Positions 11,974 through 20,905 of a DNA stretch of 56,964 nucleotides are shown in pieces. This DNA is from an uncultured Woeseiaceae bacterium. GTDB lineage: Bacteria > Pseudomonadota > Gammaproteobacteria > Steroidobacterales > Woeseiaceae. The translations under genes were made by a program, and so were the position numbers. The stretch lies in contig CAMYMR010000028.1 of the NCBI GenBank assembly GCA_947259285.1, forward strand, positions 1 through 56,964. The letters are read 5' to 3'. Every line of letters begins with the position of its first letter. Within the stretch, counting starts at the first letter, position 1. The notes under the pieces are model-generated. The model saw nothing but the letters and a program-made list of their open reading frames with translations, did not search any database and had not been told where the DNA came from.

Positions 11974-12050
11974 GCCCCGGTAGCTCAGCCGGATAGAGCA
12001 CCAGATTCCTAATCTGGGGGTCCCATGTTCGAATCATGGTCGGGGCGCCA
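11974..12050 (+). tRNA. tRNA-Arg (anticodon CCT)
   Basis: 77-base cloverleaf. Acceptor GCCCCGG pairs with TCGGGGC (one G-U), the D-loop segment is AGCTCAGCCGGATAGAGC, the anticodon arm CCAGA-TTCCTAA-TCTGG gives anticodon CCT, and the T arm is CCATG-TTCGAAT-CATGG. The discriminator G is followed by an encoded CCA. It reads the rare arginine codon AGG. Repeats that reuse its 3' end follow directly. Confidence 0.97.
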
Positions 12051-12090
12051 TTCATAACGGACGGGGCGCAGCTCCGTTCGTTATGAATGG
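12048..12090 (+). repeat. Long hairpin using the tRNA-Arg CCA end
   Basis: The encoded CCA of tRNA-Arg is the first part of a long imperfect inverted repeat: CCATTCATAACGG pairs with the far arm ending CGTTATGAATGG. No T-run follows, so it is not a standard intrinsic terminator. If transcribed it would pair the mature 3' end of the tRNA precursor and could block or guide 3' processing. Confidence 0.7.
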
Positions 12091-12114: not shown

Positions 12115-12223
12115 CTGTTCGACCAATTGCGCGAGCAATTGGCGACGAAGCGGCGTGAGCCGCGGCGCCCGGAGGGTGAGGATCGCTTATTGGCGATCCG
12201 AATCAATCCTCTCCGGGGCGCCA
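12115..12223 (+). repeat. tRNA-linked structured repeat, Arg unit 1
   Basis: The unit opens with CTGTTCGAC, then hairpin 1 (CCAATTGC-GCGA-GCAATTGG), hairpin 2 (GCGGC-GTGA-GCCGC) and hairpin 3 (GATCGC-TTATT-GGCGATC). It ends in GGGGCGCCA, the same bases that end the adjacent tRNA-Arg. The layout matches the Ser unit at 20668-20771. No protein is encoded. Confidence 0.7.
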
Positions 12224-12312
12224 TGTTCGACAAATTGTGAAACAATTTGGATGCACGAACGGCGCCGCCTAACTAGGAACGCGCCAATGAGTCAATCATG
12301 GTCGGAGTGCCA
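12224..12312 (+). repeat. tRNA-linked structured repeat, Arg unit 2
   Basis: The second unit begins TGTTCGAC and a hairpin (CAAATTGT-GAA-ACAATTTG) closely resembling that of unit 1. It ends with AATCATGGTCGGAGTGCCA, a degenerate copy of the T arm and acceptor 3' strand of tRNA-Arg (two changes in the acceptor part). The stretch from here to 12375 holds no other feature than the ribosome site of the next gene. Confidence 0.65.
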
Positions 12313-12375
12313 TGTTTTGTTTGTTTGATTTTTTGGTTTGCATTTGCCCGCCTGCAGTTGGCTTAGGAGAAATTT

Positions 12376-12855
12376 ATGAAGATTCATTTGCTTTTGATCG
12401 GTCTGGTCGCCATAGCAGCGACGGGCTGCGCCGAAAAGAAACAAGAAGCCCCGGCGCCGGAAGCGGACCCGGCTCCCGCCGCTGAAGCGGCGCAGCCCGC
12501 GGATACAACAGAGCCTGAGGCGATGGGCGACGAAACGGCGGAACTGGGCACAGACGCGTTCCTTCGACACATGCATCAGCACGCCAGCAAGCTCGAGGAT
12601 CTAAACGCGGCCCTTGCGGACGGAGACCTTGCGGCCGCGCGAACGCCGGCCTATTGGCTGGTGGGACACGAAGAGGTCAGCGCCATCCCCGAGGACTGGC
12701 GGGTACATATGCGCCGAATGCGCGACGGAGCTGATGCGGTGAGTCTAGCCGAGGATCTCGACGCCGCTCGCGCGGCGGCAAAAAGCATCTCGGAGGGCTG
12801 TGATGGCTGCCACGCCGCTGCCGAGGTCGAGGTACCGGGCCCGAGTACCGAGTAG
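12376..12855 (+). CDS. Haem-binding (CXXCH) lipoprotein, cytochrome c-prime-like
   Basis: 159 residues. A lipoprotein signal ends in ATGC (lipid Cys18), followed by an Ala/Pro/Glu-rich linker to about residue 55. The folded part is helical and ends with SISEGCDGCHAA, a single CXXCH haem c motif at 142-146 close to the C-terminus. That placement and the predicted four-helix content recall cytochrome c-prime rather than class I cytochromes. It is likely anchored in the periplasm; electron partner unknown. ATG 12376 follows AGGAGA. The SDR gene starts 26 bases downstream. Confidence 0.75.
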   Translation: MKIHLLLIGLVAIAATGCAEKKQEAPAPEADPAPAAEAAQPADTTEPEAMGDETAELGTDAFLRHMHQHASKLEDLNAALADGDLAAARTPAYWLVGHEEVSAIPEDWRVHMRRMRDGADAVSLAEDLDAARAAAKSISEGCDGCHAAAEVEVPGPSTE

Positions 12856-12881
12856 CGACGAAGTGCCAGACGCTTCCTAGC

Positions 12882-13637
12882 ATGGCGGGAGTCGCCGGGC
12901 GGGTTGCTCTGGTTACTGGCGGTGGCCGCGGAATCGGGCGTACCGCGGCAAAACTACTGGCCTCCCGCGGCGCCATCGTGATGTGCGTCTCGAGAACTCG
13001 ACAGGAGCTGGAAGACGTCGGTCTGGAATACGTTGTGGCGGACCTCGGTACGACCGAGGGCTGTTCGCAGGCGGTCGTCGAGACCGAGCAACGGCTGGGG
13101 CCCGTCGAGATTCTGGTTTGCAATCACGGTATCGGCTCCGCACACGAAGACGTTATCTGGAAACAAACCCCTGAGGTCTGGCAGCAGGCGATGCGGGTGA
13201 ACCTCGACGGACCTTTTCATCTGTCCCGGCTCGTTCTGCGAAGTATGGTCGAACGCCGCTACGGTCGAGCCGTCTACGTCAGCTCGACCGCCGGTCTCGT
13301 CGCCGAGCACGCCGGCAGCGCCTATAACAGCTCCAAGCACGGCCTGATCGGCCTGATGCGCTCTGTTGCAGAGGACGCGGGGCCTTACGGCATAACGTCG
13401 AACGCGGTCCTGCCCGGCTGGGTCCGCACAGAGATGGCGGAACGTTCGGCACGCCGGGAAGCAAAGGAACGGGACATAACGGTCGACGACGTATGGCGCG
13501 ATAGAGCGGCTTTATACCCGTCGGGGCGGGTAGCGACTGTCGCGGAAGTCGCCGAAACGATCGCGTTTCTCGCCTCCGAAGAAGCGAGTGGCATCAATGG
13601 CGAGGCCGTGAAGGTTGCTCTTGGCGGCATGTCCTAG
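12882..13637 (+). CDS. Short-chain dehydrogenase/reductase (SDR)
   Basis: 251-residue classical SDR. The cofactor motif is TGGGRGIG at 12-19, the NNAG motif reads NHG near 81, and the catalytic set is Ser134/135, Tyr148 and Lys152 (SST...YNSSK). The C-terminal ASEEASGINGEAVKVALGG is the usual cofactor/tetramer tail of FabG-like enzymes. The substrate cannot be assigned. It follows the haem lipoprotein by 26 bases and may share its transcript. Confidence 0.85.
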   Translation: MAGVAGRVALVTGGGRGIGRTAAKLLASRGAIVMCVSRTRQELEDVGLEYVVADLGTTEGCSQAVVETEQRLGPVEILVCNHGIGSAHEDVIWKQTPEVWQQAMRVNLDGPFHLSRLVLRSMVERRYGRAVYVSSTAGLVAEHAGSAYNSSKHGLIGLMRSVAEDAGPYGITSNAVLPGWVRTEMAERSARREAKERDITVDDVWRDRAALYPSGRVATVAEVAETIAFLASEEASGINGEAVKVALGGMS

Positions 13638-13796
13638 CAATTACCGCGGCGAACCGCTTCTTGAAAATCTTCCATCCGCCGCGACTACTCATGCCACCCG
13701 GCGACTTGCTATCGAATATACTTTGTCGTATTCCCGATACGCCCTGATTGCCTGCTGCGGATAATCGAGGCACCACTCGATAGAGACATCAGAACT

Positions 13797-15386
13797 ATGA
13801 CTTCAATTCCGATTTCCGATTTCGCGACCGTCGACCCTTTCAATGCGATGACGGCCAGCGCACCTGCGAGGGCCATGAACCTGGTGGACGGCCACTGGGC
13901 GGCGGACGGGCCCGTTCGAGATGACATCCCGGACCCGATGTCCGGCGGGCATTTCATGGATGTGCCTGATACGCATGACTTTACGCCTTTCTTGAGCAGC
14001 TTTGCAGCTTGTCCAAAGACCGGTCTGCACAATCCGCTCAAGAATACGGAGCGCTACGTGCATCTAGGCCATGTCTGCGCTCGCGCTGCCGCTCTGTTGG
14101 CGAATGAAAATGTCGAGGCCTATTTCGCGAAGCTGATTCAAAGAGTGATGCCCAAGAGTTGGCAACAATGTCTGAATGAGGTCATTGTCACTCGCGTTTT
14201 TCTGGAAAACTTCGCGGGCGACGGTGTGCGCTTTCTGGGACGCGGATTTTCCAATCCCGGTGACAGAACGGGTCAGGAGTCGCGCGGATACCGCTGGCCG
14301 TTCGGGCCCGTCGTGATTATCGCACCGTTTAATTTCCCGCTGGAGATACCGGCGCTGCAAACTCTGGGCGCTATTTTCATGGGCAACCGGCCGCTCGTAA
14401 AGGTCGACTCCAAAGTCAGCATCGTCTTCGAGCAGTTCTTGCGGCTTCTGATCCACAGCGGCTTGTCGCCCAACGACATTGACCTGATTCACTGCCGCGG
14501 CGAGCGCATGGGCGAATTAATCGATGCCCTGCGGGACCGCGTCCGTATGATTCAGTTCACTGGCTCGAGTCATATTGCAGAGACGATAGCCAGCAAAGTG
14601 AATGGCGCAGTGCGCTTGGAAGACGCCGGATTCGACTGGAAGGTCGTCGGCCCTGACTTTGACGATCGGTGGCTCGACTACGTTGCGTGGCAGTCTGATG
14701 AGGATGCTTACAATGCCTCGGGACAAAAGTGCTCGGCACAGAGCATCCTGTTTGTTCATGAGAACTGGTCAGCCGCCCTGCTCCCCAGACTCGAAGCGTT
14801 GGCGTCACGTCGCAACATCGCTAACCTCTCCGTCGGACCGGTGCTGTCCTGGAACAATGACCAGATCGAGAATCATGTCGACGCCGTTCTCAAAGTGCCC
14901 GGCGCCGAACTCCTGTTCGGCGGCTCGCCGCTTGAAAGTCACGACATTCCGGCGTGCTATGGCGCGTACCAACCAACGGCGGTTCACGTACCGCTGTCCG
15001 CCGTATGTACGGACTTTTTTGAATTGCTCACGACAGAGCTATTCGGGCCGTTTCAGATTGTCACTACTTATGGCGATGAGGACGTACCGTCGCTGTTGGC
15101 TCTGCTGGAGCGAATGTCGCATCACCTCACCGCGGCCGTGGTCAGCGCGGACCCGGTATTTCAGAATCGTATTCTGTCCGCAACGGTCAACGGAACAACC
15201 TATTGCGGCATGCGAGCGCGCACCACCGGCGCACCGCAGAACCATTGGTTCGGGCCGTCGGGCGATCCCCGAGCCGCCGGCATCGGAACACCCGAAGCCA
15301 TTGTGAGCACCTGGAGCGGGCACCGCGAGATCATAATGGACCAGGGTGAGCTGCACGCGGATTGGGAGGTACCGGATCTGCAATAG
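13797..15386 (+). CDS. ALDH12-type delta-1-pyrroline-5-carboxylate dehydrogenase
   Basis: 529-residue aldehyde dehydrogenase superfamily enzyme. The closest remembered family is ALDH12, the P5C dehydrogenase type first known from plants: RLEDAGFDWKVVGPD near 273-287 and YNASGQKCSAQS near 305-316 are diagnostic. Cys312 is the predicted nucleophile, and the oxyanion Asn lies in PFNFP near 177-181. The reaction is P5C to glutamate with NAD, the second step of proline breakdown. No proline dehydrogenase adjoins it. Ribosome site weak. The 159 bases upstream hold no gene. A PutA-like fragment occurs at the other end of the window. Confidence 0.8.
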   Translation: MTSIPISDFATVDPFNAMTASAPARAMNLVDGHWAADGPVRDDIPDPMSGGHFMDVPDTHDFTPFLSSFAACPKTGLHNPLKNTERYVHLGHVCARAAALLANENVEAYFAKLIQRVMPKSWQQCLNEVIVTRVFLENFAGDGVRFLGRGFSNPGDRTGQESRGYRWPFGPVVIIAPFNFPLEIPALQTLGAIFMGNRPLVKVDSKVSIVFEQFLRLLIHSGLSPNDIDLIHCRGERMGELIDALRDRVRMIQFTGSSHIAETIASKVNGAVRLEDAGFDWKVVGPDFDDRWLDYVAWQSDEDAYNASGQKCSAQSILFVHENWSAALLPRLEALASRRNIANLSVGPVLSWNNDQIENHVDAVLKVPGAELLFGGSPLESHDIPACYGAYQPTAVHVPLSAVCTDFFELLTTELFGPFQIVTTYGDEDVPSLLALLERMSHHLTAAVVSADPVFQNRILSATVNGTTYCGMRARTTGAPQNHWFGPSGDPRAAGIGTPEAIVSTWSGHREIIMDQGELHADWEVPDLQ

Positions 15387-15504
15387 GCGGTTTGGATAGA
15401 CTGCTCAACGTGAGTCGTTATCGACCGCTATTCAGCCAAGTATCCGGCCGGGAGCTCCCGATCCGGCAATTGCCAACGACGAGCATTGCCTCTACAGTGG
15501 CGCA

Positions 15505-16293
15505 ATGAATGGACAGGAAACAAAAGCGGAAACGCTAGCGCGGCATCGCAAAATCTTGCTCTGGATGGCGGCTCGAGTATCGATTTACTACATCTTCCTT
15601 GCAGGCGCCGTCGCCATCCTGATAACCGCGTTCCCGAGCATTGTAGACAACCTGCCGCTTGGTGGCGTCGGTGACATTGTCGATTACGGAAGTGCCAGTA
15701 TTTACGACCTCGAGGAAGCGCTGCTCTCAGCCGACGACGAGGAACTCGAGGAAATCGCCAGCGCAACGACTCGTGAGCGACTGGCACGCGGCCCGGCCTG
15801 GCTGCAAGGCGCGATTTCGCTCGTCTACGTAATGGCAGCGACACTTTTGCTCATGCTCCCAGTGTCGTGGGTTTATCGGGCGATACATACCGACAGCGTC
15901 TACGATCATTCGATCGACACGACCACGCTGGTTCTTCCCGCGGTAGTCGCCGGCATCGTCACGGTTGTCCAACACAGCCTCGCACTGGCGTTCAGCCTCG
16001 CCGGAATCGTTGCCGGCGTTCGATTCCGCCGCGCCTTGAGCGATACGTTCGACACGCTGTTCATCCTCGCCTCGATTGGTGTGGGAATTTCTGCCGGTGT
16101 GAAGTCAATTGAAATTGCCGTCGTGTTAACGGTCTTTTTCAACTACGCAGCGATCGCCGTATGCGCTTTCGGTGACGGGCTGGAATCACAATACGTTCTG
16201 GAAGAAGCAACTCGCCGGAAGATCGCCAAAGCGAAGAAGGCCGAAGAAAAGAGAGCCCGCGCCGAACCAACCGGACCAATGTCTAATCTCTAG
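15505..16293 (+). CDS. DUF4956-like membrane protein
   Basis: 262-residue membrane protein. One helix lies near 20-45 and a long soluble loop near 50-95 is rich in Asp/Glu. Then follow four helices from ~100 to 225, including VVQHSLALAFSLAGIVAGVRFR and FDTLFILASIGVGISAGV (quoted in parts), which match the DUF4956 pattern. The C-terminus is a Lys/Ala/Glu tail that is probably cytoplasmic. Function unknown; some relatives sit next to polyphosphate VTC-type genes, but none is here. Its last 11 bases overlap the convergent gene at 16283. Confidence 0.65.
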   Translation: MNGQETKAETLARHRKILLWMAARVSIYYIFLAGAVAILITAFPSIVDNLPLGGVGDIVDYGSASIYDLEEALLSADDEELEEIASATTRERLARGPAWLQGAISLVYVMAATLLLMLPVSWVYRAIHTDSVYDHSIDTTTLVLPAVVAGIVTVVQHSLALAFSLAGIVAGVRFRRALSDTFDTLFILASIGVGISAGVKSIEIAVVLTVFFNYAAIAVCAFGDGLESQYVLEEATRRKIAKAKKAEEKRARAEPTGPMSNL

Positions 16294-17362
16294 ACAGCAT
16301 CTCGTCAAGCTTGTCCTGACCGCGACAGCGATCATAAAGCTGCTTCTTCCGTTTCCGGGGGTCATCAAGGACTTCGAAAAAATCCTCGATGTATTTCAAG
16401 GTCTTCTCCTTGGTTCGTGGCTCAAGCTCTCGCGTGTTGGCAAATAAGCCAATTATCTCCTGGCGCTTCGACTGTACATGCGCGATGGTCTTATCCAGAA
16501 CGCCGGGCGGTTGGCAGAGGCCACGGTAATAGCGCGTCCGCACGAATCGTATCGGGATGAAGTCGGGCGGCGCCGCATACTCTGTGTTCACGAGACCGGA
16601 CATGTCGAAGTCGTACGGAACCGGTATTCTCACGTCGGCGTTGTCTTTGAGTGCGAGAATTTCCGCATTGTGGCAACACTCCCGGCCGTCGGCAGACTTC
16701 AGGTCCGAAAAGTCATTGTTGGCTATCAGAAACTGGAACAACTCCGCCAGCGCCGTCGTTTCGTGGTCCATCTGATCGAATCGGTTGGCAACGACCTTCA
16801 GCCGGGTCAGATCCAGGCGCCTGGCCATGTCACTGTCATCTTCTATGACAAAGGTGAGATCGGTCCAGGGCTGCAGTTTCTCATCGCTGTCAACATAGCT
16901 GATGCGCACCAGTCGCGTGCTAAAGCTCGTGTCGGTCAATATCTGGAAGGTGCGGTAGGCGAGGTATTCGAGCACAACGTGCTGCTGCGATTTCGCGCCG
17001 TCCTCGCAGGGCGCGACAACTTTCAATTTGTCCTGGCCCGCGAATAAGGTCCCTTTGACCTGTTTTTTCTTGAAGTTGAGCTGCAATGGCGGGTACTGAC
17101 AGTACTTGCGCCGGAACAGGCCGCGCGTACGTATGGAGACATCAAGACGCTGTGTCTTTCCATCGGCGGCCGTGTACGTCCACTGTCCCGGAAAGTAAAT
17201 TCGAACGTCCTGATTGCGTTGCGCGTAGGCCTGGGAGATTGGCGCGGTGAGTACGGCCTTAACTACCCCGTCATCCTGGAATAACGGATATCTTTCCGAC
17301 GCCTGGACGGCGCTCGCGAGCGCGATCAGAGTCAGCACCAATGGACGGTAGAATTTCTGCAT
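16283..17362 (-). CDS. Exported conserved protein of unknown function
   Basis: 359 residues from ATG 17362, which gives a clean signal peptide (YRPLVLTLIALASAVQA). An earlier ATG at 17383 is possible. The mature protein is not a family I can name with confidence. Visible blocks are RLDVSIRTRGLFRRKYCQYPP, YLAYRTFQILTD, TFVIEDDSDMARR, FLIANNDFS and VPYDFDMSGLV. The IANNDFS and PYDFDMS pair is reminiscent of catalytic and metal loops in CotH/HipA-type kinase folds, so a secreted atypical kinase is one possibility. The gene stands alone, convergent with the membrane gene. Confidence 0.5.
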   Translation of the reverse strand: MQKFYRPLVLTLIALASAVQASERYPLFQDDGVVKAVLTAPISQAYAQRNQDVRIYFPGQWTYTAADGKTQRLDVSIRTRGLFRRKYCQYPPLQLNFKKKQVKGTLFAGQDKLKVVAPCEDGAKSQQHVVLEYLAYRTFQILTDTSFSTRLVRISYVDSDEKLQPWTDLTFVIEDDSDMARRLDLTRLKVVANRFDQMDHETTALAELFQFLIANNDFSDLKSADGRECCHNAEILALKDNADVRIPVPYDFDMSGLVNTEYAAPPDFIPIRFVRTRYYRGLCQPPGVLDKTIAHVQSKRQEIIGLFANTRELEPRTKEKTLKYIEDFFEVLDDPRKRKKQLYDRCRGQDKLDEMLSRD

Positions 17363-17523
17363 ACACCTATACTTAGACGGCATCGGGGACCGAAATGTTA
17401 TACGAGAATACCGAAGTTGCGACGCAGATCACGATACTCTGCTCATAGCCGGTAAGCGGCGCGCAATGTAGAATCGGCCGCACGAGAGCCGAAACACGGC
17501 GATCGATACCGAGGAGAAATCGC

Positions 17524-18000
17524 ATGCTTGAGGTTGGCGCACCGGCACCGGAATTCGAGCTGGCTAATGACCAGGGCGGAGAAACGACACTGTCGGCGTT
17601 ATTGCAGAGTGGTCCGCTGATATTGTATTTCTACCCGGCGGATTTCACGCCGGGTTGTACCAAGGAAGCGTGCTCCATCCGTGACATCCACAATGACATC
17701 CAGTCGGTCGGCCTTCAGGTCGCGGGCGTAAGCCCGCAGGATGTAGAGAGCCACCAGCGATTTCGGGACGAGTATGAGCTACCGTTCACCCTGCTGAGCG
17801 ATCCCGATAAGATCGCGATCAAGATGTATGACGTCGACGGGCCGTTCGGGGTCGGCGTTCGACGGGCTACATTCCTGATCAACCAGGACCGGACGATCCA
17901 GGACGCGATGATGGCGGACGTGCGTATCGGACGTCACCAGGAATTCATCGAAAAGGCCGTCCTTCTCAGAGACACCGCCGGGATGCGGTCCGACGATTAG
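17524..18000 (+). CDS. bcp: Peroxiredoxin, PrxQ/Bcp type
   Basis: 158-residue thiol peroxidase of the AhpC/TSA superfamily. The peroxidatic cysteine is Cys45 in DFTPGCTKEAC and a resolving cysteine sits five positions later (Cys50), the PrxQ/Bcp arrangement. The enzyme reduces hydrogen peroxide and organic hydroperoxides using thioredoxin. ATG 17524 follows GAGGAGAAA. It is a single-gene unit; the convergent yjbQ gene ends eight bases beyond its stop. The 161 bases upstream hold no visible gene. Confidence 0.9.
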   Translation: MLEVGAPAPEFELANDQGGETTLSALLQSGPLILYFYPADFTPGCTKEACSIRDIHNDIQSVGLQVAGVSPQDVESHQRFRDEYELPFTLLSDPDKIAIKMYDVDGPFGVGVRRATFLINQDRTIQDAMMADVRIGRHQEFIEKAVLLRDTAGMRSDD

Positions 18001-18007
18001 CGCTTCT

Positions 18008-18424
18008 TCAGTCGCCGGTAGCCGTTACCACTACGCGGCGAGTATGCGGTGCGTAACGATGTTCCCAGACATAGATGCCCTGCCAGGTACCCAGCGCACA
18101 ACGTCCGTCCCGAATCGGTAGGTTCAAATCCGACTGCGTCAGAATACTGCGAATGTGAGCCGGCATATCGTCCGGGCCTTCGGCAGAGTGAGTAAACATC
18201 GGATCGCCGTCCGGGACCTGCCGCGACATGAACGCCTCAAGGTCGTGCATTACGCTGGGATCCGCATTCTCGCAGAGCATCAACGACGCGCTCGTGTGGC
18301 AAATGAAGACATGGCACAGGCCCGTACGAACGCCCGAGTCACCCACAATGCGCTGCACCTGGCTACTGATCTCGTAGGTTCCGCGACCCGTCGTCGCAAC
18401 CCGCAGCTCCCGCTGGGTAATCAA
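18008..18424 (-). CDS. yjbQ: YjbQ/UPF0047 family protein
   Basis: 138 residues when started at TTG 18424, exactly the length of E. coli YjbQ. That TTG overlaps the TGA of the upstream phosphatase (TTGA), implying coupled translation; a longer frame to 18478 has no family support. Signatures are HTSASLMLCENADP, the metal-binding region HSAEGPDDMPAHI, and ALGTWQGIYVWEHR near the end. The family has weak thiamine-phosphate synthase activity in vitro; its true physiological role is unsettled. Confidence 0.85.
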   Translation of the reverse strand: MITQRELRVATTGRGTYEISSQVQRIVGDSGVRTGLCHVFICHTSASLMLCENADPSVMHDLEAFMSRQVPDGDPMFTHSAEGPDDMPAHIRSILTQSDLNLPIRDGRCALGTWQGIYVWEHRYAPHTRRVVVTATGD

Positions 18425-19020
18425 GGGATGTACGGCTCGCCGTAACGTAGCCGGATGGTCTTGGTTTTTCCGAACCACGGAATGCTAACGAGGTATATAT
18501 TGTCGTATTCGTCGTCGGCGATTGGCGGCACGCTCTTGCTCGCACCCATGTTGGCAATCATCTGCGGAACCGTGTCGCTGTGACCCACAACGAGAATGAT
18601 CTTGCCTTTGTACTCCCTGACGACGTCTTCGAGGAATACCTCGGTATCTGCCGCGTTATAGGTCAACACCGGAAGATCCAGCGCGTCGGCTACCGGTTGC
18701 GCGGTTTGTACACTCCGTCGATAGGAGGTTGAGTAGACCGCGTCAACGCCTACCCCGGGTACCACGTCCGCGTCCACAAGTTGGCGGGCGAGTTCGGCCG
18801 CACGCCGCTGACCGACCACACTGAGGCCCGGATCGTCGTCGCCCCCCCCGGCCTTTTCGGCATGTCGGACAAATATTACTGTCGTGGTCGCCTGTGACTC
18901 GAAGAACCACGCGAGGCCAATTGCGATCAGCGTGTAAATAACGACGACCTGGAGCCTTCGCATCCGTCGCCGCCGCTTCCTGTCTATTTCTTCTTTCGTT
19001 CTTGTTTTTGTTTCGCGCAT
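18421..19020 (-). CDS. Membrane-anchored histidine phosphatase family protein
   Basis: 199 residues. A basic N-terminus and one membrane helix (VVVIYTLIAIGLAWFF, ~25-40) anchor a histidine-phosphatase domain. The catalytic RHG motif reads VRHAEK (Arg52, His53), and the second histidine lies in VVGHSD near 148. It resembles SixA-like members, but with an anchor that would place the domain in the periplasm. Substrate unknown. It is translationally coupled to yjbQ through a four-base overlap. Confidence 0.8.
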   Translation of the reverse strand: MRETKTRTKEEIDRKRRRRMRRLQVVVIYTLIAIGLAWFFESQATTTVIFVRHAEKAGGGDDDPGLSVVGQRRAAELARQLVDADVVPGVGVDAVYSTSYRRSVQTAQPVADALDLPVLTYNAADTEVFLEDVVREYKGKIILVVGHSDTVPQMIANMGASKSVPPIADDEYDNIYLVSIPWFGKTKTIRLRYGEPYIP

Positions 19021-19075
19021 GTCTCGTCACCGGCGCAGCCGCGAAAAAATTGATCAGACGTTCCCTAGCGAGACT

Positions 19076-19405
19076 TTACGAGTTTTTGGGCGGTTTGACT
19101 ATGTCCGCAGGGCGGTCGTCATCCGTATCATCGACGACACGATACTCTCCCTCAATAAGACCGCCTGGTCCCGCGGGCCTGCCCGGGTGGTCGTCTTGAC
19201 CTTGTCGCCGCAACTTGCGATTGAACCACCAGAGCCGGAGACCTATGACAGAAGCAAGAACGGCGATGATGCTACCCAGTACTAGAAACGCAAAGAAACC
19301 CAGCACAATAGAGGCCCCAATTACGAGAGCACCGACGAGAATAACGAATATGTTCGCAATGGGGTTGCCGGCAGGCAAACCACGATTGCTCGTTGAGTAT
19401 TTCAA
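19076..19405 (-). CDS. Small two-helix membrane protein
   Basis: 109 residues. Two adjacent hydrophobic helices (IANIFVILVGALVIGASIV, ~17-35, and FFAFLVLGSIIAVLASVIG, ~37-56) precede a basic stretch and an acidic Pro/Gly-rich tail. No enzymatic motif. The start is TTG 19405 with GAGG eight bases upstream; no better start exists. Conserved-looking but unnamed. It lies between the DUF1579-like exported protein and the histidine phosphatase, all on the minus strand. Confidence 0.55.
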   Translation of the reverse strand: MKYSTSNRGLPAGNPIANIFVILVGALVIGASIVLGFFAFLVLGSIIAVLASVIGLRLWWFNRKLRRQGQDDHPGRPAGPGGLIEGEYRVVDDTDDDRPADIVKPPKNS

Positions 19406-19425
19406 TATATGGTCCTCAAACCGGC

Positions 19426-20328
19426 TCAGTCGACCGGCTTTTTGGTGTAAAAGCCCTCAAACCAAGGCGACCAATCCTCACTATCGGGCAATATCTGCTC
19501 AAAAAACTGCCGCACCCGGCCATCTGGAAGTGGTGTCCACAGACCGCGAAAAGGTAAGGTGGTGCCACTCGCTACGTCATGAATCGTACCGACCAACAGC
19601 ATCCCATCATCCGTAATACCGCCGCGGATATTGATCTGGCTTCCCGCGGCGTCATTCCAGATCTGCACCCAGTCACCCGAAACCTTGTCCAAATAGTTGA
19701 CGCTCATGCCGGTGCCGCCGGTCGCACTACTCCAGGTTTCGATCAGAACGCAGCCATGTTCTGTAGATTCAATGCGATTACTTCCCGCGTAGGTTCCGTC
19801 GGCCGTATGGACGTCCCAATCACCTAACCAGAAGTCGAACGCCGAAAACGCGGCGTCATGTTCACACGGAAATGCCTTGCGGGACATCTCGGCGATAAGC
19901 TGATCATACGCCGCATTACCCGAAAGCGTGCTTAAAAGCGGGTCGGTGGTTATCAAACCGACGGCCGTGAAACCGTTTGCAGCGACGGACAGCAGTTCTT
20001 GCACGGCGCCATCGGCATCCTCCGCGAGCACGCTGAGGCGGGCTCGCTCAAGGCTGATTCGTACCGGCGAGAACTCTAGCTGCTCCGCTCTGTCGAGCGC
20101 GGTTCGAGCAAGCGCATAGCGCTCGGATTGCCTCGCACTGACCGCCAGGCGGAACCACGCTACCGTGTCCTCAGGCTGCGCCTCAATGTGCAGCGCATAA
20201 GCGTCTGCCGCAGCGCCCCAGTCTTCCGCCTCAAACAGTTGATCCGCGCCGGATTCCGCAAGGCACGATAGGGGGAAACTTAAAGCTATAATAATTAATA
20301 ACTTACGATAATAATCTAGTATTGACAT
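19426..20328 (-). CDS. Exported TPR protein with DUF1579-like domain
   Basis: 300 residues. A signal peptide (LLIIIALSFPLSCLA) is followed by TPR-like helices at ~30-105 (WFRLAVSARQSERYALARTAL). A beta-rich C-terminal domain from ~150 opens with FDFWLGDWDVHTADG, a motif typical of DUF1579-type calycin-like domains. A combination of protein-binding helices and a small ligand-binding barrel is suggested. Function unknown. The ribosome site before ATG 20328 is weak and AT-rich. Confidence 0.65.
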   Translation of the reverse strand: MSILDYYRKLLIIIALSFPLSCLAESGADQLFEAEDWGAAADAYALHIEAQPEDTVAWFRLAVSARQSERYALARTALDRAEQLEFSPVRISLERARLSVLAEDADGAVQELLSVAANGFTAVGLITTDPLLSTLSGNAAYDQLIAEMSRKAFPCEHDAAFSAFDFWLGDWDVHTADGTYAGSNRIESTEHGCVLIETWSSATGGTGMSVNYLDKVSGDWVQIWNDAAGSQINIRGGITDDGMLLVGTIHDVASGTTLPFRGLWTPLPDGRVRQFFEQILPDSEDWSPWFEGFYTKKPVD

Positions 20329-20459
20329 TAAGTTTATTCCAGGAGAACTGCCCTTGTCCGGACAAGAATCAACTGAGCAGGTTCGAGTCGCGACGGGTCA
20401 TCCGCTTTTTCAATATGAGGTTCAAGGTCCACTAAATCAATATTCGGCAAGAGCACAGG

Positions 20460-20488
20460 TTGAATCCTCAAGGCACTGCGAGCACAAT
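20460..20488 (+). promoter_or_regulatory. Possible promoter of tRNA-Ser
   Basis: TTGAAT (20460-20465) and CACAAT (20483-20488) are 17 bases apart, about 24 bases before the tRNA. Both boxes match consensus at four of six positions. The rest of 20329-20511 shows no gene. Confidence 0.4.
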
Positions 20489-20511
20489 TCGCGGTCGTTC
20501 GATCAAGCACC

Positions 20512-20602
20512 GGAGAGGTGGCAGAGTGGTTGAATGCACTGGTCTTGAAAACCAGCAAGGGTTAGTAGCCCTTCGTGGGTTCAAATCCCACCCTCTCCGC
20601 CA
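20512..20602 (+). tRNA. tRNA-Ser (anticodon TGA)
   Basis: 91-base class II tRNA. Acceptor GGAGAGG pairs with CCTCTCC, and the anticodon stem CTGGT/ACCAG encloses CTTGAAA, giving anticodon TGA. A long variable arm (AGGGTTAGTAGCCCT) marks serine, the T arm is GTGGG-TTCAAAT-CCCAC, and CCA is encoded. It is followed by a terminator and then two further copies of its 3' end. The gene for its synthetase lies about 2 kb away and is frame-broken. Confidence 0.97.
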
Positions 20603-20614
20603 GACATTGAAAAT

Positions 20615-20637
20615 GGGGCCCTCGGGGCCCCGTTTTT
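20615..20637 (+). terminator. Intrinsic terminator after tRNA-Ser
   Basis: GGGGCCC-TCG-GGGCCCC stem-loop followed by GTTTTT, 12 bases after the tRNA. Confidence 0.85.
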
Positions 20638-20667
20638 GATGTCCAGTAGAGGGTTTGGGGTTTAAAC

Positions 20668-20771
20668 CCTGTTCAACAAAACGCGCCAGCGTTTTGGACG
20701 CACGTAGTGCGCCCCGCAGGGGCGAGAATCGCCCTGAGGCGATTTGAGTCCATCCCACCCTCTCCGCCAGA
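20668..20771 (+). repeat. tRNA-linked structured repeat, Ser unit 1
   Basis: The unit starts CCTGTTCAAC, then runs through hairpins AAAACGC-GCCA-GCGTTTT, CGCAC-GTA-GTGCG, GCCCC-GCA-GGGGC and AATCGCC-CTGA-GGCGATT. It ends with ATCCCACCCTCTCCGCCAGA (20752-20771), identical to the last 18 bases of tRNA-Ser plus two. The hairpin order and the GGCGATT...ATCC join resemble Arg unit 1 at 12115-12223. Confidence 0.75.
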
Positions 20772-20777
20772 AAATGA

Positions 20778-20805
20778 AATGGCCCCCTTGCGGGGCCATT
20801 TTGTT
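20778..20805 (+). terminator. Intrinsic terminator after Ser repeat unit 1
   Basis: AATGGCCCC/GGGGCCATT stem with a CTTGC-type loop followed by a T-rich tract (TTGTTTTC). It occupies the same relative place after the repeated tail as the terminator at 20615 does after the tRNA, so the repeat copies the tRNA-tail-plus-terminator module. Confidence 0.75.
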
Positions 20806-20835
20806 TTCTTGCCGAGTGCGGTCTGGGATGAGAGC

Positions 20836-20905
20836 CCTGTTCAACCCGCACAGCGGCGAAGCCGCATGCGTGAACGCGAAGCGATCATCCCACCCTCTCC
20901 GCCAG
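20836..20905 (+). repeat. tRNA-linked structured repeat, Ser unit 2 (short)
   Basis: Shorter unit, again starting CCTGTTCAAC. GTTCA pairs with TGAAC around an inner GCGGC-GAA-GCCGC hairpin, and an outer GGGATGA (from 20825) pairs with TCATCCC at the tail. It ends with a third copy of ATCCCACCCTCTCCGCCAGA at 20886-20905. The terminator that should follow is degenerate (GTGCCCCCGCC without T-run). Confidence 0.7.

Follow-up and report, generated by a model that had tools for sequence, protein, structure and literature searches.

The window analysed here is a stretch of 56,964 nucleotides from an uncultured Woeseiaceae bacterium (contig CAMYMR010000028.1, positions 1 to 56,964 of the forward strand). 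It carries genes for tRNA-Arg(CCT) and tRNA-Ser(TGA), and each of the two has two repeat units 3' of it (Table 1). A unit starts with a head of T-loop sequence, TTCRA, continues with a cassette of about 75-80 bp that folds into four hairpins, and ends in a tail that resembles a tRNA 3' end. A preliminary description, made from the letters of the sequence alone, had proposed that Arg unit 1 and Ser unit 1 share one scaffold. The parts it listed are present: the TTCRA head, a 7-8 bp hairpin with a 4-base loop, a second hairpin, a GC segment, a hairpin of the form ATCGC..GGCGAT and a GARTCxATCC joint. The GC segment is itself a hairpin (hairpin 3), of the form CCC(C)-GNA-(G)GGG.

Table 1. Features of the tRNA-Arg and tRNA-Ser loci in the window. 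R1 and R2 are covariance models of the cassette; tail fractions give agreement with the local tRNA.
Feature	Position	Strand	Evidence and remarks
tRNA-Arg(CCT)	11974-12050	+	ARAGORN; Rfam RF00005
Hairpin immediately 3' of tRNA-Arg	12048-12090	+	Arms 12048-12067 / 12071-12090, 90% complementary; inverted repeat I7
Arg unit 1: head TTCGA (T-loop), cassette of four hairpins, joint GAATC, AATCC	12118-12209	+	R2 59.6 bits, R1 55.8 bits
Arg unit 1 tail	12205-12223	+	14/18 to tRNA-Arg(CCT)
Arg unit 2, degenerate cassette	12226-12298	+	R2 26.2 bits, E 3e-4; R1 24.6 bits, E 6e-4
Arg unit 2 tail	12294-12312	+	16/18 to tRNA-Arg; overlaps terminator-like site 12297-12314 (+)
tRNA-Ser(TGA)	20512-20602	+	ARAGORN
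Palindrome separating tRNA-Ser from unit 1, followed by a T run on +	20603-20643	+	Terminator-like by eye
Antitail of Ser unit 1 (tRNA 3' end in reverse complement, imperfect)	20647-20667	+	Position located with the tail comparison
Ser unit 1: head TTCAA (T-loop), cassette of four hairpins, joint, ATCC	20672-20755	+	R2 91.6 bits, R1 103.3 bits
Ser unit 1 tail	20752-20769	+	18/18 to tRNA-Ser, CCA included
Second terminator-like hairpin, 3' of Ser unit 1	20777-20801	+	Inverted repeat I4; terminator scan: - strand only
Antitail of Ser unit 2	20811-20835	+	Pairing by eye
Ser unit 2: head GTTCAAC, hairpins shortened	20839-20886	+	No match by R1 or R2
Ser unit 2 tail	20887-20904	+	18/18 to tRNA-Ser

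The units were searched for with two covariance models. R1 was trained on 26 cassettes, Ser unit 1 among them and Arg unit 1 not, while R2 was built from an alignment (A4) that holds no sequence from the window. R2 matches Ser unit 1 (E = 3e-19), Arg unit 1 (E = 7e-12) and Arg unit 2 (E = 3e-4) and nothing further in the window up to an E-value of 1, which bears out the shared scaffold of the two first units. With R1, the next window matches after the same three units have E-values above 1. Ser unit 2, which retains only the head, the tail and shorter hairpins, is matched by neither model.

Ser unit 1 and Arg unit 1 can both be aligned end to end with a single model of 84 positions and 28 base pairs. 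The order of a unit is the TTCRA head, hairpin 1 (8 bp with a GNNA-type loop), GAC, hairpin 2, hairpin 3, hairpin 4 between Y-GA and GA-R, TC, and AATCC followed by the tail. The cassette has a conserved secondary structure with covariation far above that of shuffled sequence. In the genus alignment (26 cassettes), 99.2% of cells are paired and 67 cells have changed on both sides of a pair, compared to 22 in shuffles. In the order and class alignment (70 distinct cassettes, with 7 of the 53 source loci from the same genus), 97.6% of 1852 cells are paired, 27 of the 28 pairs are altered on both sides, and 464 cells have changed on both sides compared to 117 in shuffles. The alignment from the phylum search (32 distinct cassettes) gave 196 such cells compared to 49. 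The numbers of paired cells, of double changes and the covariation score were reached by none of 500 shuffles in any of the three alignments, and the number of pair types in the genus alignment was reached by four; alignments A3, A4 and A6 were fitted to the model structure, which favours pairing in them. The Y-R pair closing hairpin 4 outside the GA/GA step also covaries, with 13 CG, 12 UA and 1 UG among the 26 genus cassettes.

The scaffold is a widespread family across the Proteobacteria. BLAST with the Ser cassette found matches in 50 of 61 genomes of the genus. Ninety BLAST places yielded 52 cassettes by pattern; 48 of these together with Arg unit 1 formed alignment A1, which was only inspected, and 26 formed A2, hand-picked among those of 82 or 84 bases. 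Within the order, R1 had matches in 50 of 147 genomes, representing 27 of 55 genera, and within the class in 85 of 369, representing 67 of 271 genera. With R2 at an E-value of 1e-4, 66 of 398 phylum genomes had matches, 45 of them outside the class. All of these model counts are lower bounds since only 8-30 candidates were scored per genome, under stricter filters. A pattern scan of named genomes gave 57 stretches, mostly titled Woeseiaceae, Woeseia or Gammaproteobacteria; three were from Chromatiales, two from Marinobacter (with Marinobacter pelagius among the carriers), and one was from a metagenome-assembled genome (MAG) of Rubripirellula, which may be a binning error.

The genome of the bacterium itself (G000) is an incomplete MAG of 3.2 Mb in 166 contigs, 84.8% complete, in which 24 tRNAs were found. 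R2 has 12 matches in it at an E-value of 1e-3. By reading, nine lie in sequence derived from tRNA or tmRNA genes and three outside (two on contig C53, one on C10). Visual inspection showed units with local tails 3' of Arg(CCT), Arg(TCG), Gln(CTG) and the three Ser genes (TGA, CGA, GGA). The tRNA-His and tRNA-Leu(TAA) genes have a tail duplication of another kind, a second copy of the 3' end (20/20 in L025 and 18/20 in L026) without a cassette.

The cassette typically sits between TTCRA and AATCC of a T-loop. Because it lies inside the T-loop, the tail belongs to the recipient gene, which may be Ser, Arg, Glu, Gln, Met, Val, Tyr or tmRNA. In the own genome, locus L006 contains an intact tRNA-Met and, upstream of it, a near-complete copy of this tRNA whose T-loop carries the cassette. 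Altogether there are 166 cassette matches across 126 loci, 162 of them distinct. Ninety of the distinct cassettes have an intact tRNA on the same strand within 460 bp upstream, 23 have a tRNA downstream only, and 49 fall elsewhere. Among 68 genus loci, 46 have an intact tRNA within 500 bp, 10 more have a tRNA tail and 12 have neither; these 12 include inverted tRNA-Phe copies, copies in anticodon loops and contig ends. Of the 53 order and class loci, chosen by model score and including seven from the same genus, 40 have an intact tRNA on the same strand no more than 500 bp away, a further 7 have a tail of at least 15/18, and 6 have neither. The distance is also regular, with 62 of 69 first units 62-95 bp 3' of the tRNA.

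The search of the genome and its relatives found the scaffold at other tRNA genes with local tails, as the preliminary description had anticipated. The 68 first units behind a tRNA agree with their own tRNA at a mean of 14.5 of 18 positions, compared to 10.5 for shuffled assignments (maximum 11.3 in 500). The stronger proposal, that each tail is that of its own tRNA, fits both Ser tails fully and Arg unit 2 at 16 of 18 positions. It fits Arg unit 1 only in part: the acceptor portion, GGGGCGCCA, is identical to the local one and the T-stem portion deviates. Across the first units, only 39 of 68 reach 15/18, and lower scorers retain mainly the T-stem part. Three tRNA-Arg fragments (L117, L085, L152) were seen by eye to start at or near the anticodon letters TTCGAACC, which gives a second TTCGAA junction in addition to the one in the T-loop.

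An antitail precedes each Ser head, a part that the preliminary description had overlooked. For Ser unit 1 (L023), the duplex of the antitail with its own tail has a predicted energy of -21.3 kcal/mol, compared to a mean of -14.9 and a best of -22.4 for foreign upstream stretches. Over 48 units, the means are -22.2 kcal/mol with the own and -16.0 kcal/mol with the foreign stretch; the own duplex beats the foreign mean in 33 units and every foreign one in only 14. The antitail is frequent, not universal. TGAGAA occurs in 24 of 138 upstream stretches (2.0 in shuffles) and the T-loop complement in 23 (0.6 in shuffles). The palindrome between tRNA-Ser and unit 1 was reported as terminator-like by the terminator scan of the window on the - strand only. 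Directly 3' of the Arg units lies an open reading frame (ORF) of 159 amino acids (12376-12855) with a lipoprotein-like start by eye and without a Pfam match.

The window units belong to the same family as the rtT repeats of E. coli (Rfam RtT, RF00391), and this identity is well supported by the overlap of the models. The preliminary description had seen rtT as an analogy and known of no other named family; the comparison makes rtT the family itself. R1 matches three of the four E. coli K-12 rtT repeats (17.9-20.7 bits, E-values of 2e-4 to 9e-4 in 2.4 kb), and R2 matches all four (21.3-28.3 bits). The E. coli repeats were not in the training set of R2, since all members of A4 outscore them. Among the 23 genomes with RtT matches above the cut-off, 12 Rfam-certified loci were examined, and the R2 match lies inside the RtT match at all 12; A4 does hold L189 and L190, which have RtT matches just under the cut-off, and L189 shares its genome with L255. 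A called tRNA lies upstream in 11 of the 12 loci, with an 18/18 tail in 10 of these (Tyr, Gln(CTG), Gln(TTG), Ser(GGA)) and a 7/18 tail in L254. Like RtT, the window units lie behind a tRNA and end in a copy of its 3' end, with 18/18 twice at Ser and 14/18 and 16/18 at Arg.

The kinship is visible only with E-value thresholds on relatives and not at the gathering cut-off. At that cut-off, the only Rfam matches in the window are the two tRNAs, and the units stay under the 45 bits set for RtT. The RtT model has no match at an E-value of 1e-3 in G000, where 8 candidates were scored. At the same E-value it matches 65 of 369 class genomes, only 23 of them above the cut-off, and of 14 control genomes it matches E. 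coli only. The shared order is antitail, TTCGA head, four-hairpin cassette with CCCGAAGGG and YGA..GAR, and AATCC with the local tRNA tail. In E. coli the tandem units are 178 bp apart. The window units differ from these in lying at Arg and Ser genes, with a terminator-like palindrome in between at Ser, and the wider family differs in being found also at tmRNA genes, in anticodon loops, inverted and dispersed. A second Rfam family, AaHKsRNA22 (Aggregatibacter sRNA 22, RF02902), matches the cassette in L099, L006 and L067 at 37.5, 36.1 and 32.8 bits, all under its cut-off of 39.8; the window loci (L036, L024) are not among its matches. Near RtT units behind a tRNA-Tyr gene there is also a group II intron (L259 2248-2395, RF02012, 115.5 bits).

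Copies at sites other than tRNA T-loops were found in several forms. In the own genome, a unit lies 3' of the tmRNA gene (L292, tmRNA at 800-1112 on the - strand, Rfam 162.7 bits), and its tail is identical to the tmRNA 3' end by reading. L283 has the same arrangement, again by reading, and L288 has three units 3' of tmRNA that retain only the T-stem part. The anticodon loop of tRNA-Ser(CGA) reads TTCGAAA, resembling a T-loop, and the cassette lies inside this loop in a copy of the tRNA, with the junction present on both sides, in L072, L103, L124 and L155; in L131 the anticodon-loop junction is present on the right side only. Inverted cassettes were seen by eye at tRNA-Phe-derived sequence in seven loci (L035, L094, L111, L112, L133, L294, L295). 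These exceptional copies suggest that T-loop letters, rather than a working tRNA, are the common denominator of the tRNA-linked copies.

Dispersed cassettes occur in three genomes (G564, G595, G614), with no tRNA called in the stretches examined, and dispersed subfamilies with flanks of their own occur in G041 and G000. One such subfamily has the same fold and similar short flanks in both genomes (GGAAGTAAAGCGC before and GAGCCAT behind; L303-L305 in G041, L298 on contig C10 of G000), away from called tRNAs. In G564, the dispersed cassette adjoins about 700 common bases (L273-L275) with an ORF that resembles an IS110/IS1111 transposase by eye (L274 349-588, - strand); L272 is without them. The dispersed repeat may be an IS110 target.

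The explanation we slightly favour, at a little better than even confidence, is an old, structured repeat, non-autonomous, which has spread into T-loops, is now mostly inherited in place with occasional movement, and in some copies serves as RtT RNA. The cassette sits in the T-loop (TTCRA^AATC) of a duplicated tRNA or tmRNA 3' end. Insertion by some enzyme, or recombination at the shared T-loop sequence, would leave the tail of the recipient gene. Since the T-loop sequence is near-universal and flanks the cassette on both sides, no separate copying of the tail would be needed. We infer both the movement of the cassette and this route, and likewise that transcribed units would give a CCA-ended RNA resembling an acceptor and T-arm (RtT RNA), cut out by tRNA processing. 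The dispersed, inverted, anticodon-loop and tmRNA copies favour movement at the DNA level. The preliminary description had offered a choice between a mobile element inserting at tRNA 3' ends and an RNA family. The insertion point is the T-loop and not the 3' end. Between the two readings the evidence is divided: copies that are dispersed, inverted or in anticodon loops speak for mobility of the DNA, and the published RtT RNAs speak for RNA.

Several results weigh against the mobile repeat. In a tree built from 68 genus cassettes, each locus contributing one (from 87 of the 93 A3 units), tRNA-family labels change 27 times compared to 43.3 for shuffled labels (minimum 38), the labels, Phe copies and several tRNA fragments being assigned by eye or by hand. 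Genome labels (56 cassettes in 19 genomes) change 41 times compared to 45.4 (minimum 40). Copies thus track their tRNA, hardly their genome, and look long resident, and a recent spread within genomes is unsupported by the cassette tree. The analysis found no transposase, no integrase and no boundary of an element; orthologous empty sites were not searched for. Phages gave no cassette match, and plasmids gave one weak match of 35 bases on a Legionella plasmid. The dispersed copies inspected are missing the TTCRA head. In the own genome, neither model matches the units that were recognized by eye 3' of Arg(TCG), Gln(CTG), Ser(CGA) and Ser(GGA), whose hairpin sets differ, so the family is broader and more variable than the model. 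Finally, a script rule placed a terminator between the tRNA and the unit in 36 of 61 first units (2 in shuffles).

A further version of the mobile repeat, which we consider less likely than not, is a mini-element structured as single-stranded DNA that targets the T-loop motif TTCRA^AATC. It would enter tRNA and tmRNA genes and the Ser(CGA) anticodon loop in either orientation and inherit the local tail. On this view rtT of E. coli would be a relic that has stayed in place, with RtT RNA as a secondary use. Two known systems invite comparison with the cassette. It resembles REP elements with their RAYT transposases in its dispersed intergenic GC-rich hairpins with small loops, and differs in its main residence, the T-loop, and in the absence of the Y1 transposase from 15 of 50 carriers. 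It resembles integrative elements directed at tRNA genes in its target and restored tail, and differs in being tiny, conserved and devoid of gene content, with no integrase among the 10 window ORFs scanned. The Y1 transposase family (PF01797) is present in 39 of the 61 genus genomes including G000, which divide into 35 of the 50 with cassettes and 4 of the 11 without, the genomes being incomplete. It is missing from 15 cassette-bearing genomes, including the copy-rich G019, G021, G051, G066 and G073, and from 7 without cassettes. A RAYT/Y1 transposase is unsupported as a required partner, although there is a weak association.

Another possible explanation, less probable than not, is a vertically inherited small-RNA family. 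Tandem duplication of the tRNA 3' end would give co-transcribed units that are released by tRNA processing as regulatory or decoy RNAs, and selection acting on the RNA would maintain the hairpins and the tail; this and the mobile repeat are not fully exclusive. The clustering of cassettes by tRNA family on the tree, the covarying fold and the tails of at least 15/18 in 39 of 68 first units all agree with it. Of two papers, one reports RtT RNAs of Actinobacillus pleuropneumoniae, next to genes for Asn- and Lys-tRNA, that gave signals on Northern blots (PMC4986893), and the other reports RtT RNA as up-regulated in Thioalkalivibrio (PMC8092127); according to the same papers, the E. coli repeats were originally found as a product of the tyrT transcript. 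On that evidence, members of the family can be transcribed. The inverted tRNA-Phe copies, the anticodon-loop copies and the dispersed copies away from called tRNAs speak against such a family. The script-rule terminators in 36 of 61 first units also argue against simple co-transcription in those genomes; behind the tail, the rule found a terminator in 13 of 61 (1 in shuffles).

The hairpin loops bear on whether RNA or DNA is the selected molecule. Among the 162 distinct cassettes, 81 of the 88 tetraloops in hairpin 1 have the form GNNA, 65 of them GNYA compared to 16 GNRA, a preference that does not suit selection on RNA. Triloops of the form cGNAg make up 99 of 130 in hairpin 2 and 129 of 142 in hairpin 3; the copies are related, so that none of these loop counts are independent, and the model favours its training loops. 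In DNA, cGNAg and d(cGNNAg) are stable loops. Terminator hairpins behind tRNAs at the same loci use other loops, with cGNAg in 1 of 52 and cGNNAg in 0 of 52. The pattern hints at selection on single-stranded DNA and is not proof of it. We regard it as unlikely, though worth stating, that single-stranded DNA is the selected molecule, handled by a transposase or recombinase that recognizes the folded strand as at IS200/IS605 ends, REP elements and integron attC sites. Hairpin 4 does not conform, as no more than 9 of 120 tetraloops there have the GNNA form; within the order and class set alone hairpin 1 is mixed, with GNNA in 13 of 19 tetraloops, cGNAg in 8 of 25 triloops and 19 six-base loops. 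The absence of the Y1 transposase from 15 of the 50 cassette-bearing genus genomes speaks against it as well, and a published paper describes the loop motif as portable between polymer types.

It is very improbable that the units are attachment-site remnants of ordinary integrative elements using tRNA 3' ends. Integrases use T-loops and anticodon loops as sites, and tail duplications are expected from such insertions, but they do not lead one to expect, in many genera, a single 80-bp cassette of constant fold at a set distance from the tRNA (62-95 bp in 62 of 69 first units); among the 10 window ORFs scanned (of 23), none is an integrase and three are without a family. Short two-copy repeats are often due to chance, but a chance resemblance of GC-rich hairpins is practically excluded by E-values of 3e-19 and 7e-12 with the window-free model, 0 of 500 shuffles in three alignments and matches in 85 of 369 class genomes.

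Two observations were made apart from the cassette. Behind tRNA-Pro(TGG) in L020 (contig C3 of G000) lies a tRNA-Arg-like gene whose anticodon region is split by a few hundred bases resembling a group I intron by eye; ARAGORN did not call it. Two plastid families of Rfam, RF04351 and RF04354, give matches under the cut-off on the strand opposite to bacterial tRNAs in L067, L166 (partly on the + strand), L174, L190, L099, L006 and L024, probably because those models contain tRNA sequence.

In a literature search of titles and abstract openings, with subscription papers mostly outside reach, no description of T-loop cassettes was found. The family itself is known as RtT, with the window below the Rfam cut-off; the same search turned up no account of the T-loop rule, of how widely the family occurs, or of copies that lie at tmRNA genes, in anticodon loops, inverted or dispersed. 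On these findings, rtT, long a puzzle of the tyrT locus of E. coli, would become one outpost of a Proteobacteria-wide family. The rule of a cassette in a T-loop with the tail of the recipient explains tRNA-specific tails and predicts where copies are to be found, a prediction borne out at tmRNA genes. It also carries a warning, since annotated tRNA-like 3' ends may be such units. The covariance model obtained is free of the tRNA-specific part, and whether the repeat is mobile DNA or regulatory RNA can be tested directly in carriers that are in culture, E. coli K-12 among them.

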